Assembly: GCA_012797975.1 (NCBI GenBank)
Contig: JAAZOD010000030.1
Span: forward strand, 1-64,000
Direction: 5' to 3'
From: Pelolinea sp.
Lineage (GTDB): Bacteria > Chloroflexota > Anaerolineae > Anaerolineales > Anaerolineaceae
DNA length: 64,000 nt
Both the position numbers and the translations under genes were made by a program. The first letter of the stretch is position 1. The number at the start of each line of letters is the position of its first letter. This document shows, piece after piece, positions 34,802 to 42,442 of the stretch. The notes beneath the pieces were generated by a model. That model had not been told where the DNA came from. It worked only from the letters and a program-made list of their open reading frames with translations, and made no database searches.

Positions 34802-36124
34802 ATGCAAGTGCTTCTGGATATTTGGAATGTAATTTTCAATCAAGTTATCACCAAACCGCAACTGCTTCTGGCTATCATTGTTGCGATTGGTTATGCGTTA
34901 CTGAAGAGACCCTTTGTCAATGTTCTCTCCGGTGCAATCAAAACCATGGTTGGTGTCATGATCTTACAGGTAGGGTCCGGCCAATTAACCAACACTTTCC
35001 GCCCCATTTTACTGGCACTCTCAACTCGCTTCGGCATCACCGGCACGATCATTGATCCCTATACTGGTTTCCCGGCCGCGTTGGAATCATTGGGCGATAA
35101 TCAGTCATGGGTTGGTTATGTGATCCTGATCGCCTTGGGCGTGAACATCCTGTTGGTCGCTGTGACCAAGATGCGTGGCCTGTTCCTGACCGGTCACATC
35201 ATGTTCCAGCAATCCTGTGTTGCCACTGCTTTGATCGCCTACAACCTGGGCCTTCCCATGCTCCCCACCATCCTGATCGCTGGCGCGCTGGTTGGCTTGT
35301 ATTGGGCGATTGGCTCCAATGCGTTGATTGGACCGACCAACAAAGTGACCAATAATGCGGGCTTCACCATTGGCCACCAGCAGATGTTGATGGACTGGAT
35401 CGCTTCCAAGTTCTCCCACAAATTTGGCGATCCTGAAAAAGATGACTGCGAAAAAGTGGAATTGCCGGGCTGGTTCTCCATCCTGCAAGACAACATCGTT
35501 GCAATGGCAATCATCATGTTCCTCTTCATCCTGGTCATCATGCTGGCTCTGGGTAAGGCGGCCGTTGACGAAATGGCAGCCGGAACGAACTGGATCCTGT
35601 ACATCTTATTGACCGGCGTATCCTTTGCTGTCTACATCACCATCATCCTCACGGGTGTTCGTCTGTTCGTAGCAGAACTGGCAAGCTCCTTCAAGGGCAT
35701 TTCTGAGAAACTGTTGAAGAACGCTGTGATCGGCGTTGACTGCCCTGCCATCATGCCCTTTTCTCCCAATGCATGGATGATCGGCTTCTTGTTCACCACC
35801 CTGGGCGAATTGATCGCGATCGGGGTTTTGATCCTGATGAAATCCCCCGTCCTCATCATCGCTGGTTTCGTGCCGCTGTTCTTCGATGGTGGCCCCATCG
35901 GCGTGTATGCGAACAAGCATGGTGGCTTCAAAGCCGTCGCTTTCTTCTGCACCCTGACCGGTCTCGTTCAGGTCTTCGGTTCTGCGCTGGTTGTTCCAAT
36001 GTCTGGTATGGTTGGTGGTTGGATGGGCAACTTCGACTGGGCAACAATCTGGCCTGCCATTACCGTTGTGCTCCGCTTCATCGGACACCTCTTTGGCTTG
36101 CCCGTTCCTCCTTACGGAGCATAA
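34802..36124 (+). CDS. PTS ascorbate-type EIIC permease (UlaA/SgaT-like)
   Basis: This is a 440-aa membrane protein with at least ten hydrophobic segments and family landmarks GVMILQVGSGQLTNTFRPI, GHIMFQQSCVATAL, GPTNKVTNNAGFTIGHQQM and PLFFDGGPIGVYANKHGG. It forms the sugar-acid channel of an ascorbate-type PTS. AAGGAG precedes the ATG. A strong terminator follows, before the EIIA gene. Confidence 0.93.
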   Translation: MQVLLDIWNVIFNQVITKPQLLLAIIVAIGYALLKRPFVNVLSGAIKTMVGVMILQVGSGQLTNTFRPILLALSTRFGITGTIIDPYTGFPAALESLGDNQSWVGYVILIALGVNILLVAVTKMRGLFLTGHIMFQQSCVATALIAYNLGLPMLPTILIAGALVGLYWAIGSNALIGPTNKVTNNAGFTIGHQQMLMDWIASKFSHKFGDPEKDDCEKVELPGWFSILQDNIVAMAIIMFLFILVIMLALGKAAVDEMAAGTNWILYILLTGVSFAVYITIILTGVRLFVAELASSFKGISEKLLKNAVIGVDCPAIMPFSPNAWMIGFLFTTLGELIAIGVLILMKSPVLIIAGFVPLFFDGGPIGVYANKHGGFKAVAFFCTLTGLVQVFGSALVVPMSGMVGGWMGNFDWATIWPAITVVLRFIGHLFGLPVPPYGA

Positions 36125-36141
36125 AGTACATTTGTGGTAGC

Positions 36142-36165
36142 GCTGAAATAGCTTAGTATTTCAGC
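36142..36165 (+). repeat. Inverted repeat after ulaA-like gene
   Basis: GCTGAAATA and TATTTCAGC form perfect 9-bp arms with the loop GCTTAG, 18 bp after the EIIC stop. There is no T-run. It may protect the upstream mRNA against 3' decay. Confidence 0.6.
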
Positions 36166-36174
36166 ATGACGAAA

Positions 36175-36221
36175 GGGAGCTCCATGATTATTACTACCTT
36201 GTTCCATGGAGCCCCTTTTTT
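36175..36221 (+). terminator. Intrinsic terminator between EIIC and EIIA genes
   Basis: GGGAGCTCCATG and CATGGAGCCCC pair with a one-base bulge around an 18-nt loop, followed by T6. It would lower expression of the distal EIIA and regulator genes unless they have a promoter of their own. Confidence 0.8.
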
Positions 36222-36266
36222 ATCCTTCGTGAAATAGTGGTACAGTGATAGAAAAGGAATTATTGA

Positions 36267-36731
36267 ATGGCAGTGACATTATTGGATTTGCTTCAGGAGA
36301 ATATGATCGACCTGAATATTTCTGTCAAGAATTGGGAGGAGGCTCTGCAGCGAGGAGCTCAACTGCTGATCGATGACGGTGGGGTGGAGCCTCGCTATCT
36401 GGATGCCATGCTCAGCATGGTAAAGGAGCTGGGGCCGTATGTGGTCATTGCCCCCGGATTGGCCTTAGGACACGCCGGGCACGATCAGGGTGTCAATCGG
36501 ACCTGTTTCAGCCTGGTAACGTTGAAAACGCCGGTCGATTTTGGCGTGCCGGTGAATGATCCGGTCAGTATTGTGTTCAGTTTTGCCGCGCCCAATAAAG
36601 AAGAACACATGCAGGCATTGCGCGACCTGGCGCTGTTCTGCAGTGAAAGCAAAAACCTTGCAGCAATTCGGGCGGCAACGCGCAAAAAACAAATTCGTGA
36701 ATTGTTGATAAAATTCTTTCAACCAAAGTAA
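36267..36731 (+). CDS. PTS EIIA component, mannitol/fructose/ascorbate type
   Basis: This is a 154-aa protein of the EIIA type 2 family, with the phospho-His region APGLALGHAGHDQGV around residues 61-75 and SIVFSFAAPNKEEHMQALRDLALF downstream. It would take phosphate from HPr and pass it to the EIIB Cys. It is in order with the EIIB and EIIC genes but beyond a terminator. Confidence 0.9.
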   Translation: MAVTLLDLLQENMIDLNISVKNWEEALQRGAQLLIDDGGVEPRYLDAMLSMVKELGPYVVIAPGLALGHAGHDQGVNRTCFSLVTLKTPVDFGVPVNDPVSIVFSFAAPNKEEHMQALRDLALFCSESKNLAAIRAATRKKQIRELLIKFFQPK

Positions 36732-36760
36732 AATCATCGAAGGTACGCGAAGGAGGAATT

Positions 36761-37729
36761 TTGCGATTGAATTCGAAAGAGATGAACATGATCCGCGCAG
36801 CCGAGCTGTATTATGAGCAGCGGCTGGATCAATCGGCGATCGCAAAGGCATTGGATTGTTCCCGATCGACCGTTTCGCGCTTGCTGGCGGAGGCGATCGA
36901 AACAGGCATTGTGCGCATCTATATTAAACGCCCGGTGGAAAAATTCCCTTCTCTGGCGGAGGCGATCAAACATCAATTCGGTCTTAAAGAAGCCGTCGTT
37001 GTATCGGGGGGGATCAGCAACGAACAGGCATTTTATAATGTTGGGTTCGCTGCCGCTGAATTTTTGTCGCAAATACTGCACAATAATGTGGTCATTGGTA
37101 TTAGTTTTGGCGTTACGCTTTCTTATTTGGTGCAAGAATTGTCCGAATACAATTTCAACTATGAGGGAATTGAAGTGATCCAATTGATGGGCGGCCTTGG
37201 CTTCGGCGATCCCGCCATTGACGGCCCTGAGCTGGCACAAAAAATGGCCAGGGCATTGGGAGGGACTTACCGTTATTTACAGGCACCTGCCGTGGTGGAT
37301 TCGCCGGAAATCGCACAGCATCTCTTGAAGGAAAAGAACATTCGCGAGACCATTCAAAAAGCGCATCAAGCGGAGATCACCATTTCCAGCGTTGGGTCGC
37401 TGATGGACAATCTTTCCAGTCTTGAACGTTCCGGATATATTCGCAAAGAGGATCGGGCCATTTTTCATTCCAAGGGCGCGATCGGGCACTCTCTTTCCAG
37501 GATGATTGATGAGAATGGCGTTCCCATCAAGGATGCTTTCAATGATCGCATTGTGGGGGCGCCGATTGAAGTGATAAAAAATGCCAAATGGTCGATCGGC
37601 ATTGGCTCCAATCCGCTGAAGGCACAGGTGTTTCTGGCGGCGCTGCACGATCAACAGTTCAACGTCCTGGTCATCGATGACGGCACTGCCCGTGAAATGC
37701 TGCGCATGCAATCGGTGGATTCTGCATAG
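36761..37729 (+). CDS. SorC-family (sugar-binding) transcriptional regulator
   Basis: This is a 322-aa protein. The N-terminal HTH (LDQSAIAKALDCSRSTVSRLLAEAIETGIV) is followed by a sugar-phosphate-binding domain (NVVIGISFGVTLSYLVQEL, ITISSVGSLMDNLSSL, KGAIGHSLSRMIDENG). The start is probably TTG at 36761 with AGGAGG 5 bp upstream. It likely controls the PTS and the divergent lactonase-BtpA genes in response to a phosphorylated sugar. Confidence 0.9.
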   Translation: MRLNSKEMNMIRAAELYYEQRLDQSAIAKALDCSRSTVSRLLAEAIETGIVRIYIKRPVEKFPSLAEAIKHQFGLKEAVVVSGGISNEQAFYNVGFAAAEFLSQILHNNVVIGISFGVTLSYLVQELSEYNFNYEGIEVIQLMGGLGFGDPAIDGPELAQKMARALGGTYRYLQAPAVVDSPEIAQHLLKEKNIRETIQKAHQAEITISSVGSLMDNLSSLERSGYIRKEDRAIFHSKGAIGHSLSRMIDENGVPIKDAFNDRIVGAPIEVIKNAKWSIGIGSNPLKAQVFLAALHDQQFNVLVIDDGTAREMLRMQSVDSA

Positions 37730-38601: not shown

Positions 38602-38630
38602 TTGACTGGGTTTCTGGCTGGGTGTACACT
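38602..38630 (+). promoter_or_regulatory. Promoter of the corA leader
   Basis: TTGACT (38602-38607) and TACACT (38625-38630) are separated by exactly 17 bp. The transcript would start near 38637, about 245 nt before corA, giving a long leader. Confidence 0.75.
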
Positions 38631-38665
38631 AGGGATTGTAGTTATTTAAAGAAAGAAAAGGAAAA

Positions 38666-38764
38666 ATGCAAGAAGAAAAATCTTACGATCTGGATCCTGA
38701 CCCTAGACGTAACTTAACAATGCTTTCGTGCGAAATAGTTTTAATGGGAGGTGTGTTGCTTTAA
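38666..38764 (+). CDS. 32-aa leader peptide upstream of corA, MgtL-like
   Basis: This short frame starts MQEEKSYDLDPDPRRNL and ends at TAA 38764. An AAGGAAAA site directly precedes its ATG. The acidic/proline run D-L-D-P-D-P followed by Arg-Arg resembles the MgtL leader peptide of Salmonella mgtA (E-P-D-P-T-P then Arg-Arg-Arg), where such residues destabilise the ribosome at low Mg2+. Here the frame sits between a good promoter and an intrinsic terminator before corA, the layout of an attenuator. Function is inferred by analogy. Confidence 0.65.
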   Translation: MQEEKSYDLDPDPRRNLTMLSCEIVLMGGVLL

Positions 38765-38808
38765 AAAGCATTCACATCCTTTGATTGCTTTGTCTGTATT
38801 GCATAAAG

Positions 38809-38848
38809 CTCTCAGCTATCTCGCATGAATAAGCTGAGAGTTTTTTAT
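38809..38848 (+). terminator. Leader terminator (attenuator) before corA
   Basis: CTCTCAGCT (38809-38817) pairs perfectly with AGCTGAGAG (38832-38840), followed by T6. It lies 45 bp after the leader stop codon and 35 bp before the corA ATG. AGCATTCA at 38767-38774 could pair with TGAATAAGCT at 38826-38835 and so open the terminator. Confidence 0.85.
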
Positions 38849-38882
38849 TTGGATCGGGAACAATCTGCTGCGGAGGTAACCG

Positions 38883-39812
38883 ATGATCACCATTCTACAG
38901 ACAAAAAATGAAATGCTTGTTCCTATCGAGCAGATCACGGATGGCGCATGGATCAATGTCGTCAATCCTGATGAGAAGGAAATCGAGCAATTACTTTCTC
39001 TTGGAATTCCCAAAGATTTTATAACCTATCCGTTGGACCTGGATGAGCGTTCAAGAACGGAAAAGGATGATGGGTATACCCTGATTCTGCTCCGTGTTCC
39101 TTACTTTAAAAGTTGGGAAGAGGATATTCCCTATATTGCTATTCCGTTGGGGATTATTTTCAACGATCAATATATCGTTACTGTTTGCCGGTATAAGAAC
39201 GACCTGATCAATGATTTCCAGGCCGGGGACCGGAAAAACCTTTCTACCTTAAAGCGGAATCGCTTTATTTTGCAGATCATGCTGGCCAATGCCACTTATT
39301 TTCTCGCCTATTTGCGCAACATTCAAAAGAAGATCGATCAGATCGAAGATGAATTGCAGCGTTCGATCCGCAACAAAGAAGTGCTGGATCTGCTGAAATA
39401 CCAAAAATGTCTGGAATATTTTTCCACCGCTCTGCGGTCAAACGAGCTGATGTTCGAACGTCTGCAGCGCAATAAGTTCTTTACGATCTTCCCGGATGAT
39501 TCGGATCTGCTGGAAGATGTCATCATCGAGAACCAGCAGGCCATTGAAATGACCGGCATTTCCGGCAACTTGCTGGGGCAAATGATGGACGCTTATGCAT
39601 CCATTATCCAGAACAACCAGAATATCATTTTCAAGATCATGACCGCCTGGACGATCATTTTGAGCTTGCCAACCATCGTTTCCGGCTTTTTTGGCATGAA
39701 CATCAGTTTACCCTTTGAAAGTCACCCCAACGCTTTTGGCATTGTTACTGGTATTTCCCTTCTGATCATGGTGGCGGTGATCCTGTTCTTTAAAAAGATC
39801 GATTGGTTGTAG
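38883..39812 (+). CDS. corA: CorA-type magnesium transporter
   Basis: This is a 309-aa protein with a soluble N-terminal funnel domain, a long stalk helix and two C-terminal membrane spans. The first span ends in the signature FGMN (SGFFGMNISLP, residues about 276-286). Length and layout fit CorA channels for Mg2+ (or Co2+/Ni2+). GGAGGTAACCG precedes the ATG. It is preceded by the leader-peptide attenuator and followed by an MgtE-like protein and an NRAMP-related Mg transporter, which strengthens the Mg2+ assignment. Confidence 0.93.
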   Translation: MITILQTKNEMLVPIEQITDGAWINVVNPDEKEIEQLLSLGIPKDFITYPLDLDERSRTEKDDGYTLILLRVPYFKSWEEDIPYIAIPLGIIFNDQYIVTVCRYKNDLINDFQAGDRKNLSTLKRNRFILQIMLANATYFLAYLRNIQKKIDQIEDELQRSIRNKEVLDLLKYQKCLEYFSTALRSNELMFERLQRNKFFTIFPDDSDLLEDVIIENQQAIEMTGISGNLLGQMMDAYASIIQNNQNIIFKIMTAWTIILSLPTIVSGFFGMNISLPFESHPNAFGIVTGISLLIMVAVILFFKKIDWL

Positions 39813-39918
39813 AAAAGAGCTGATGGGTTCGATTGAAAAAAGAAAAATCGGCAAGGCATGATCCTTGCCGGTATCATCCTGACAGGAAAGCATGCTTCGG
39901 GATGGAAAGGAGAGAGGG

Positions 39919-41175
39919 ATGTTCTATCTGAGCGAAATTCTTGATAAAAAAGTATGGGATCGTTGGGGCAAGGAGATTGGGAAATGCTGCGATATCCTGA
40001 CTGGTTTTGATGAGAAGGTTTTTCACCGTATTGTGGCCGTGGAGGTCAAAGAGAAAAACGGAGATATCAAGTTGATCTCATCTGAATCAATCAGCAGTTT
40101 GTTCCCCAATGTCACCATCAGCAAACCGGGTATGGAAGTGACTGCGTATGTTCCGAAAGGAAACGAACTGTACCTGCGGAAGAAGGTTTTGGACCATCAG
40201 ATCGTGGATGTGGAAGGGAAGCGTGTGGTGCGGGTCAATGACATTCAGATTGCCTTCACCCAAAACGCCTACTATGTCACCGGGGTGGATGTGGGAAGCG
40301 CTGGTCTGTTGCGGCGTCTGGGGTTGAAAAAAGTCAATGAACTGCTGCGCAGACTTGCCAAGCGTCGCCCTGCGGAGGGAGTGATCTCCTGGAAGGATGT
40401 GGCGTACGTTGAGGCAAAAGATCCGCTGCGCTTGAAAACATCACAGGAAAAAATCAGCAAACTGCCGCCTGCCGATATTGCCAGCATTCTGAACGATCTT
40501 GATCGTCCTACCGGCCAATCGCTTTTGCAGCGCATGGGTGATGATATTCTGGCTGATACGCTGGAAGAGAGCCCCTCGCGCTTTCAGATTGACGCACTTT
40601 CACGCATGGGTTCGGAGCGTGCCGCTGATATTTTGGAGGAGATGGATCCCGATGAAGCGGCCGACCTCATTGCCAGTCTGCCGCAGGAAAAAGGATCTGT
40701 GCTGCTCGATTTGATGGAAAAAGACGATGCGGAAGACATTCGCAATTTGCTCGATTATCCGCCAGATTCAGCGGGCGGCATCATGACCACTGAATTTGCC
40801 TGGATCCCGCAGGGATTGACGGTGGAAAAAGCGATGGCCTTCCTGCGCTCTTCCAAAGATGCGCAGGATGTGGAGGACATGTATTACATCCATGTTCTGG
40901 ATGAAAAAGAAAAGCTGGTTGGCGAAGTGTATCTGCGCGATCTGGTCATGGTTGCTCCCACCACGGAGGTGGATTCCATGATGGATAAAGATCCGATCTC
41001 TGTCTCACCGTTTTCTTCGCAGGAAGAAACTGCTTATCTGGCTGCCAAGTACAACCTGCTTTCTATTCCGGTTGTCGATGAAAAGGGTGTCATGCAGGGC
41101 ATTGTCACACTGGATGACGCTTTGGATACTGTGCTGCCGACTGCTTATAAAAAACGTTTGCCGCGCTTCTTTTAA
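39919..41175 (+). CDS. Soluble MgtE-like protein: PRC-barrel-like, MgtE N-domain, CBS pair, no membrane domain
   Basis: This is a 418-aa protein. The N-terminal region looks like a PRC-barrel pair (residues 1-150). An MgtE intracellular superhelical domain follows (LPPADIASILNDLDRPTGQSLLQ, MDPDEAADLIASLP, DYPPDSAGGIMTTEFAW) and a CBS pair (AYLAAKYNLLSIPVVDEKG). It then stops, so the five-span Mg2+ channel domain of MgtE is absent. ATG at 39919 has AAAGGAGAGAGG; the 27-bp longer start is less likely. The NRMT gene begins 19 bp after its stop, so it may be the Mg2+ or nucleotide-sensing regulatory subunit of that transporter. Confidence 0.88.
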   Translation: MFYLSEILDKKVWDRWGKEIGKCCDILTGFDEKVFHRIVAVEVKEKNGDIKLISSESISSLFPNVTISKPGMEVTAYVPKGNELYLRKKVLDHQIVDVEGKRVVRVNDIQIAFTQNAYYVTGVDVGSAGLLRRLGLKKVNELLRRLAKRRPAEGVISWKDVAYVEAKDPLRLKTSQEKISKLPPADIASILNDLDRPTGQSLLQRMGDDILADTLEESPSRFQIDALSRMGSERAADILEEMDPDEAADLIASLPQEKGSVLLDLMEKDDAEDIRNLLDYPPDSAGGIMTTEFAWIPQGLTVEKAMAFLRSSKDAQDVEDMYYIHVLDEKEKLVGEVYLRDLVMVAPTTEVDSMMDKDPISVSPFSSQEETAYLAAKYNLLSIPVVDEKGVMQGIVTLDDALDTVLPTAYKKRLPRFF

Positions 41176-41194
41176 TCTGATGTAAGGTGTGAAA

Positions 41195-42442
41195 ATGAAA
41201 AAATTATTTAAAACACGATTCTTTCAACGGCTATGGCTGTTGATCGCTATGCTGGGCCCGGGGTTGATCACCGCCTCTGCCGATAATGATGCCTCCGGGA
41301 TTGCAACCTATTCCATGGCCGGTTCACGCTACGGATATAACTTTCTGTGGGTGCTGGTGGCTGTGACCTTTGGCGAGGCCATCGTCCAGGAGATGGCTGC
41401 CCGCATGGGAACCATTACCGGAAAAGGTCTGGGCGACCTGATCCGTGAAAAATTCGGGGTAAAGATCACCATCTTTGCCATGGTCTGTTTGTTGGTCGCC
41501 AATATGGGAACCACCATCGCACAGTTTGCGGGCATTGCAGCAGGTGCTGAGTTGCTGGGCTTGAGCCGCTATATCGTCATTCCCTTTGTGGCCATCTTCC
41601 TGGCTGTGCTGATCATGCGTGGATCGTACAAGGGGATCGAGAAGGTGCTGATCGTGCTATGCATGGCGGCCTTGAGTTATGTGATCACCGCCATAATCCT
41701 CAAACCGGATTGGAATGAGATTTTACGGGCGGCTTTTATACCCAAAGTGGAATCTTTGCAGACCGATTATATTATGGCTCTTCTGGCAACCATCGGTACG
41801 ACCATCACGCCTTGGGGTATTTTTTATATGCAAGCCACGATTGTTGACAAGGGTGTGAAAGTGGAGGAATATCCCATGACCAAGGTCGATGTGGTCTTTG
41901 GAGCGGTCTGGGGCAATATCATTTCTGCGTTCATCATCATCACAACGGCTGCCACCCTTTTTCAGCATGGGATCGTTGTTGAAGGGGCAGAACAGGCAGC
42001 CATGGCGCTGGAACCGTTGGCCGGGGAGTGGGCGAAAGTATTGTTTTCCATCGGCTTTATTGGGGCTTCCATTCTGGCTGCCATGGTTCTTCCCCTTTCC
42101 ACGGTTTATCCCATGGCTGAAGCGTTTGGCTGGGAACGGGGCTTGGATAATAAACGCAAAGATGCGCCTCTTTTCTACGGCTTGTTGGGGGGTGTCATCC
42201 TGGTCAGTGCGCTGATCGTCCTGATTCCTGATCTGCCGCTCTTCCAATTGATGTGGACAACCCAGGCCATCAATGCGATTTTGCTGCCGGTGATCCTGAT
42301 CTTGATGCTCAAACTGGCGAACAATAAAGAACTGCTTGGCTCCTACGCCAACAAGAAATGGCAGAATTATTTTTCTTACACCTTGATGGTGATCATCACC
42401 GTGGCAACGGCTGTTCTGATTCTGGACCCGCTTTTTACATGA
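41195..42442 (+). CDS. NRAMP-related magnesium transporter (NRMT-like)
   Basis: This is a 415-aa protein with eleven predicted spans and the SLC11 fold. In helix 1 the usual DPGN metal motif is replaced by ASADNDASGIATYS, and the helix-6 Met of classical NRAMP is not seen (TIGTTITPWGIFYMQ). That pattern is known from NRAMP-related Mg2+ transporters, which widened their site to take hydrated Mg2+. ATG at 41195 has TAAGGTG. The upstream MgtE-like and CorA genes support Mg2+ as substrate. Confidence 0.88.
   Translation: MKKLFKTRFFQRLWLLIAMLGPGLITASADNDASGIATYSMAGSRYGYNFLWVLVAVTFGEAIVQEMAARMGTITGKGLGDLIREKFGVKITIFAMVCLLVANMGTTIAQFAGIAAGAELLGLSRYIVIPFVAIFLAVLIMRGSYKGIEKVLIVLCMAALSYVITAIILKPDWNEILRAAFIPKVESLQTDYIMALLATIGTTITPWGIFYMQATIVDKGVKVEEYPMTKVDVVFGAVWGNIISAFIIITTAATLFQHGIVVEGAEQAAMALEPLAGEWAKVLFSIGFIGASILAAMVLPLSTVYPMAEAFGWERGLDNKRKDAPLFYGLLGGVILVSALIVLIPDLPLFQLMWTTQAINAILLPVILILMLKLANNKELLGSYANKKWQNYFSYTLMVIITVATAVLILDPLFT

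Follow-up and report, generated by a model that had tools for sequence, protein, structure and literature searches.

The corA gene of an Anaerolineaceae bacterium (phylum Chloroflexota; 2.57-Mb genome) lies behind a promoter, a short leader open reading frame (ORF) and an intrinsic terminator, arranged in this order from 5' to 3', and this layout raises the question of what the leader and the terminator do for the transporter gene that follows them. In the stretch of 64,000 nucleotides that was analyzed (here called the window; Table 1), corA starts 36 nt past the T6 tract of the terminator and is followed by genes for an MgtE_N-CBS protein, whose start at ATG 39919 fits the relatives better than the ORF-tool start at 39892, and for an Nramp-family transporter. 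The window corA is the sole CorA match in the genome; since no M-box was found in the window genome or the genus and no MgtE in the window genome, the leader would govern the only CorA of this genome. Farther upstream (34802-37729), and unrelated to the leader, PTS EIIC-GAT and EIIA genes are followed by a gene for a sugar-binding-domain transcriptional regulator and by the DUF2807 gene. We consider it likely that the element works as a transcription attenuator, dependent on translation, through which low cellular Mg2+ is sensed and the corA operon controlled; that Mg2+ is the signal, that ribosomes are destabilized and which way the response runs are inferred, and there are no expression data.

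Table 1. Features of the corA leader locus in the window, and loci of the Bacilli leaders
Feature	Position	Strand	Basis or remark
DUF2807 gene	ends 38515		upstream of promoter
Sigma-70-type promoter TTGACT-17-TACACT	38602-38630	+	9/12 consensus matches
Leader ORF Shine-Dalgarno AAGGA	38658-38662	+	read from sequence
Leader ORF, 32 codons, MQEEKSYDLDPDPRRNLTMLSCEIVLMGGVLL and stop (begins MQEEKSYDLDPDPRRNLT)	38666-38764	+	ORF, codon-level selection, relatives
DLDPDP acidic/proline motif, codons 8-13	38687-38704	+	proposed ribosome-destabilization site
Leader stop codon	38762-38764	+	
Putative antiterminator 5' strand AATGGGAG, within leader codons 26-29	38743-38750	+	register comparison, modest covariation
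Hairpin GGAGGTGTGTTGCTTT/AAAGC..CACATCC, leader stop in loop	38747-38780	+	overlaps antiterminator strand
Intrinsic terminator (5' arm 38805-38817, 3' arm 38832-38844, T6 38841-38846)	38805-38846	+	
corA Shine-Dalgarno GGAGG	38872-38876	+	GGAGGT invariant in element alignment
corA, CorA-family Mg2+ channel	38883-39812	+	Pfam PF01544, E 1.4e-55
MgtE_N-CBS protein without MgtE membrane domain	39919-41175	+	Pfam and relatives
Nramp-family transporter, probable Nramp-related Mg transporter (NrmT-like)	41189-42442	+	NrmT precedent (PMC4072509)
Bacilli leaders	L093-L094, L096-L111		upstream of corA

The close relatives of the window genome in the public collection were Anaerolineaceae MAGs. The same corA layout was present in four other genomes of the genus (L032 to L035; CorA 81 to 89% identical) and in two Pelolinea genomes (L036, from the isolate Pelolinea submarina, and L040; CorA 57 to 60% identical). 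A profile of leader codons 1 to 18, searched against 147 genomes of the family, recovered the seven known elements and four more (two in G020 and one each in G436 and G336), and at E < 1e-3 it matched leaders of Mg transporters only. Altogether, 11 elements were found in 10 genomes, 8 of them before corA, 2 before MgtE_N-CBS/Nramp operons and 1 before full-length mgtE. G020 carried one element before a diverged corA and the other before an MgtE_N-CBS/Nramp operon; in G336, which had no CorA match to the query, the element likewise preceded an MgtE_N-CBS/Nramp operon, and in G436 it preceded the full-length mgtE. In each element of these three genomes, the promoter and the leader were present, with GGAG close to the leader end, and were followed by the terminator and by GGAGGT before the transporter gene. 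Since the element stands before several transporter loci, these results indicated that the unit goes with Mg transporters rather than with a single gene neighborhood. The elements are few (11) and come from a single family, so that their sequences are not independent.

Profile matches at E > 0.03 were inspected in part (L157 to L161 and L163 to L165), and only L160, which is the G336 element (L170), was real. A class-wide profile search (396 genomes, mostly of other genera) yielded no convincing new member; matches at E 0.004 to 0.04 were not individually inspected, and most of them lay in long open frames. The nucleotide pattern GANCCTGACCCTARAC returned, from 400 genomes of the order, only the known elements and a chance match inside a gene (L112). 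A loose leader pattern (AGGA, ATG, [D/E]P[D/E]P) occurred 3 times in the 2.57-Mb genome, compared to once for the reversed control.

MgtE_N-CBS plus Nramp operons lie at 39892-42442 of the window, at L168:414-2938 and at L170:380-2961, and the same leader precedes those of G020 and G336; from sequence alone, we infer that this supports a Mg2+ role for the NrmT-like pair. The corA behind one of the leader copies in G020 (L168:3178-3912) encodes only about 244 residues, with the C-terminal membrane part seemingly missing, and may be truncated, frameshifted or a MAG error.

To what extent the leader matters as a peptide can be read from its substitutions. Within the genus, 0.209 of the synonymous and 0.017 of the nonsynonymous sites differed in codons 2 to 16 (pN/pS 0.08), versus 0.332 and 0.251 in codons 17 to 31 (pN/pS 0.76, i.e., nearly neutral), and the DLDPDPR core (codons 8 to 14) was free of nonsynonymous differences (ratio 0.00). 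Selection on the peptide is therefore confined to the N-terminal half of the leader; from this selection we infer that the leader is translated. Moreover, AAAGGAAAAATG at the leader Shine-Dalgarno site was unchanged in all five genus members. Leaders were 30 to 33 codons long, with the acidic/proline motif ending at codon 11 to 14, and [DE]PDP was retained in all 11 elements, down to 57% CorA identity and before non-homologous Mg transporters. The Arg-Arg that follows DPDP in the window was replaced in relatives by K-H, K-S, Q-S or N-R.

The initial annotation, made without any comparison, had read the locus as an MgtL-like Mg2+ attenuator consisting of the promoter TTGACT-17-TACACT, a 32-codon leader with a ribosome binding site and the acidic/proline run DLDPDP, and a perfect 9-bp terminator with T6 ahead of corA. 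These parts held: the promoter matches the consensus at 9 of 12 positions and recurs as TTGAC...TAnACT in every one of the 11 elements, the leader is selected and conserved, and the terminator stem covaries among relatives. Conserved leader codons were found along with the terminator, the opposite of the outcome that would have refuted the reading, which is supported by comparison, with the Mg2+ response itself being inferred. The inclusion of Arg-Arg in the sensor failed, as these residues are not conserved in relatives.

Synonymous sites of the motif were unusually fixed, too (pS 0.21 versus 0.767 for corA in the genus), which indicates that an RNA-level or codon-level constraint coexists with selection on the peptide. 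The P-D-P core was CCT-GAC-CCT in 11 of 11 elements, and all 22 motif proline codons were CCT, compared to a background of 23% CCT among the prolines of neighboring genes (the sequences are not independent, and codon backgrounds were drawn from the loci only, not from the whole genome). At codon 10, the acidic residue was kept with a variable third position (GAT, GAC or GAA). It is possible that the CCU codons are the sensor and the acidic residues secondary, with low Mg2+ reducing m1G37 methylation by TrmD and slowing ribosomes at CCU. In favor of this explanation, CCT is invariant despite synonymous freedom elsewhere, and the TrmD mechanism is known for mgtL, whose CC[C/U] proline codons require m1G37 tRNA made by the Mg2+-dependent TrmD (PMC6335274). 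However, the conservation of acidic residues with a free third position at codon 10 argues that the residues matter too, and the Bacilli leaders described below use CCA as well.

Classical amino acid attenuation, in which a shortage of charged tRNA-Pro or tRNA-Arg would be sensed by a stall at CCU or AGA-CGU, appears unlikely. It would be in line with the invariant proline codons (22/22 CCT), with the arginine codons that come next in most elements and with the response of Salmonella MgtP to charged tRNA-Pro (PMC8092293). In contrast to what it predicts, Arg-Arg is not conserved, just two proline codons are conserved, with acidic residues conserved alongside, and the genes downstream are always Mg transporters and never amino acid genes. 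In trp-type leader-peptide attenuators, the position of the ribosome on the leader decides between antiterminator and terminator; the window element differs from these by its acidic/proline motif, which replaces codons for a pathway amino acid as the putative sensor, and by a putative antiterminator strand located within the last leader codons.

A GGAG was found 15 nt upstream of the leader stop in 10 of 11 elements and 12 nt upstream in L034. This spacing is fixed although the residues between the motif and the leader end are nearly neutral. Such a geometry would be needed for a ribosome at the stop codon to occlude the putative antiterminator strand, and for that strand to be exposed once a ribosome has fallen off at DLDPDP. 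A simpler explanation would be a constitutive terminator that lowers corA expression, with a leader ORF that is vestigial or encodes a functional small protein. Attenuating terminators without sensing do exist, and translation of the short leader is possible. Yet leader length and GGAG-to-stop spacing are fixed while the C-terminal residues evolve almost neutrally, and the unit is also found before non-homologous Mg transporters, which leaves this explanation with very little likelihood.

The terminator stem comprises a perfect 9-bp pairing, CTCTCAGCT/AGCTGAGAG (38809-38817 with 38832-38840), which extends to 13 bp with A-T and G-U pairs and is followed by T6; a simple terminator scan missed it because the loop exceeds 8 nt. 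An intrinsic terminator with an identical stem core, compensated stem changes and a T tract precedes the transporter gene in every element. Across the 11 elements, 77 of 77 cells of the terminator core were paired, with two pairs changed on both sides (also seen in the seven-sequence version). To locate the antiterminator, all possible registers of the leader end with the 5' arm of the terminator were compared across the 11 elements. The best one, 38743-38750 with 38809-38816, was common to all of them and had 71 of 88 cells paired, versus a mean of 30.9 (standard deviation 10.5) over 71 registers. Terminator and leader arms swapped between species equaled the real register in 2.4% of trials, and 2 of 500 shuffles reached the covariation score; neither control corrects for kinship among the sequences. 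In the window, the antiterminator core is a pairing of only 6 bp (TGGGAG 38745-38750 with CTCTCA 38809-38814). Single-sequence folding gave a strong antiterminator in L035, L036 and L040, and was ambiguous for the window alone, where it was not favored over shuffles. Masked folding, with the ribosome at DPDP versus at the stop, revealed a clear difference only in L040 and a partial one in L034, L035 and L036; for the window it showed no clear difference. We regard the support for an antiterminator in this register, mutually exclusive with the terminator, as moderate at most, given modest covariation, controls that leave relatedness in place and a weak signal in the window's own fold. The different antiterminator of the initial annotation (38767-38774 with 38826-38835) failed, as its second strand falls within the terminator loop and is not kept even by the closest relative.

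As for other structures, the hairpin around the stop codon was clear in the genus and in some relatives and weak in others. An outer stem of leader TGCGAAATAG with the conserved TTTGTCTGTATTGCA was rejected; it pairs well in the window, but L032 forms only part of it and genomes outside the genus lack it. Between leader and terminator, TTTGTCTGTAT (38789-38799) was invariant in the five genus members, and other genera lack it.

Conserved nucleotides and stem-loops, the low synonymous rate in the motif, and the precedents of the M-box and the mgtA leader would also fit a Mg2+-binding RNA, i.e., a riboswitch next to which the ORF is incidental. We consider this very unlikely in view of the strong protein-level selection on codons 2 to 16, the lack of an M-box or any other Rfam match, and a leader-to-terminator region that is short (24 to 48 nt) and not conserved between genera. 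In the window, Rfam gave no match at the gathering score, the mgtA leader model included, and nothing relevant at relaxed E-values; no Rfam regulatory-RNA family was present in the window and eight relatives. The M-box (ykoK) riboswitch (RF00380) resembles the element in placing corA, mgtE and Nramp-related genes under an intrinsic terminator (PMC4072509), but is an aptamer RNA without a sensor peptide, and RF00380 had no match in the window genome or genus. M-boxes were seen in only 2 of 41 relatives (G005:C87:6345-6522 and G025:C58:20501-20677).

In the attenuator model that we prefer, the RNA would start ∼30 nt upstream of the 32-codon leader. At low Mg2+, ribosomes on EE...DLDPDP with its CCU proline codons would turn unstable or slow and would not reach the leader end. 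That ribosomes are destabilized rather than paused is inferred by analogy with MgtL, and drop-off has not been shown here; in MgtL, EPDP causes Mg2+-dependent ribosome drop-off, and changing Glu2 to Gln and Asp4 to Asn raised leader expression and abolished expression of an mgtA reporter (PMC11282234). The window genome encodes bL31, which counters acidic destabilization in E. coli. Free of ribosome, the 3' end of the leader (38743-38750) would pair with the terminator 5' arm (38809-38816), and with this antiterminator formed RNA polymerase would continue into corA-mgtE_N-nramp. At high Mg2+, the footprint of a ribosome at the stop (38762-38764) would extend over the GGAG 15 nt upstream; with the GGAG masked, no antiterminator would arise, the terminator would form and transcription would end. 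The parts themselves, their order and spacing, the selection on the peptide, the covarying terminator, the common antiterminator register and the three kinds of Mg transporter are shown by comparison. Mg2+ as the signal is inferred from the downstream genes and by analogy with MgtL, and the direction of the response (transporter on at low, off at high Mg2+) is inferred as well.

The mgtL leader of mgtA in Salmonella and E. coli is likewise a short ORF before a Mg2+ importer gene, with an early acidic/proline motif (EPDP) and CC[C/U] proline codons, and translation of the leader is expected to repress the transporter (PMC11282234, PMC6335274, PMC11552253). It differs in its dependence on Rho, whereas the window element, in Chloroflexota, has an intrinsic terminator and a putative antiterminator; in the window, moreover, the motif is DLDPDP at codons 8 to 13 of a 32-codon leader, and the family's genes are corA, mgtE and MgtE_N/Nramp instead of a P-type ATPase gene. 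Of the features that define MgtL-type leaders as a functional class, the element shows the short ORF before a Mg2+ transporter, the early selected acidic/proline motif and the CC[C/U] prolines; Mg2+-dependent ribosome drop-off on the motif is inferred by analogy only. Rho-dependent termination, which belongs to mgtL proper, is not a feature of the element, a covarying intrinsic terminator being present instead (Rho involvement is not experimentally excluded). The corL leader of Salmonella and E. coli is also a translated ORF before corA, with inverse expression of leader and corA (PMC11552253), but CorL is poor in acidic and proline residues and works through Rho. In mgtQ of the Salmonella mgtCBR operon, acidic codons destabilize the ribosome, switch RNA pairing and free the ribosome-binding site of a Mg transporter (PMC8092293); mgtQ has only 8 codons and a translational output, whereas the output of the window element would be transcriptional.

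Leaders with an acidic/proline motif were also found in Bacilli, where 18 of 18 loci from the CorA search had a leader with a GGAGTTGA-type Shine-Dalgarno sequence and [DE]P[DE]P before corA. In 16 of those genomes, the leader pattern occurred once per genome, and the reversed control never did. The (N/S)[DE]P[DE]P core had a pS of 0.626 and a pN of 0.097, versus 0.402 and 0.414 in the next nine codons; among the proline codons of these leaders, CCG was absent, CCC frequent and CCA also used. An element A (GAGGAAGTC) lies 12 nt after EPEP/DPDP, an element B (GACTTCCTC) at the leader stop or just past it, and an element C (GAGGAGG) is the corA ribosome-binding site. The alternative pairings A:B and B:C were possible in the 13 of 18 loci for which a strict B was recognized. 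Judged only by their sequences, these leaders could be a translational Mg2+ switch that frees or hides the corA ribosome-binding site, a tentative assignment that resembles Salmonella MgtQ, where acidic codons make the ribosome-binding site of mgtB accessible (PMC8092293). Bacilli and Chloroflexota leaders differ in sequence outside the motif and in output, and whether they share ancestry is undecided.

A second leader type was observed in other Anaerolineales (L038, L042, L048, L052, L054, L056, L067 and L076), within the last ∼260 nt before corA. It consists of a short acidic ORF just before corA that ends in Pro-Pro(CCC)-TGA (e.g., MDEKKKDEDPLSHSKEPP and stop) and of an upstream terminator-like stem, GCTTCCCG...CGGGAAGC-T run, the 5' arm of which lies inside a competing stem; several loci have a small stem-loop between the leader stop and the corA Shine-Dalgarno sequence. 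Five scanned loci of this type gave no Rfam match.

Acidic/proline leader sensing for a Mg2+ transporter is already known, having been shown in enterobacteria. What is probably new is that such a leader occurs in this phylum, that it is combined with an intrinsic terminator and carries a putative antiterminator strand within its own codons, that it serves three types of transporter, and that Bacilli have a version of it; no description of the Anaerolineaceae or Bacilli leader family was found in the open-access literature searched (subscription papers were outside the search). On a bolder reading, toward which we lean by a narrow margin, ribosome destabilization by an early acidic/proline nascent peptide would serve bacteria in general as a Mg2+ sensor. 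Three or more phyla would use it, whether it arose convergently or was inherited from an old ancestor, and the outputs would differ: termination by Rho in enterobacteria, an attenuator with an intrinsic terminator ahead of corA, mgtE or Nramp-type genes in Anaerolineaceae, and, for Bacilli, unmasking of the corA ribosome-binding site. If this is true, the ribosome itself would be a widespread Mg2+ sensor, beyond enterobacteria. The comparison also offers sequence rules for such leaders, namely [DE]PDP no later than codon 14, CCU codons and a GGAG placed 15 nt upstream of the stop, and it links the poorly understood MgtE_N-CBS/Nramp operon to Mg2+.
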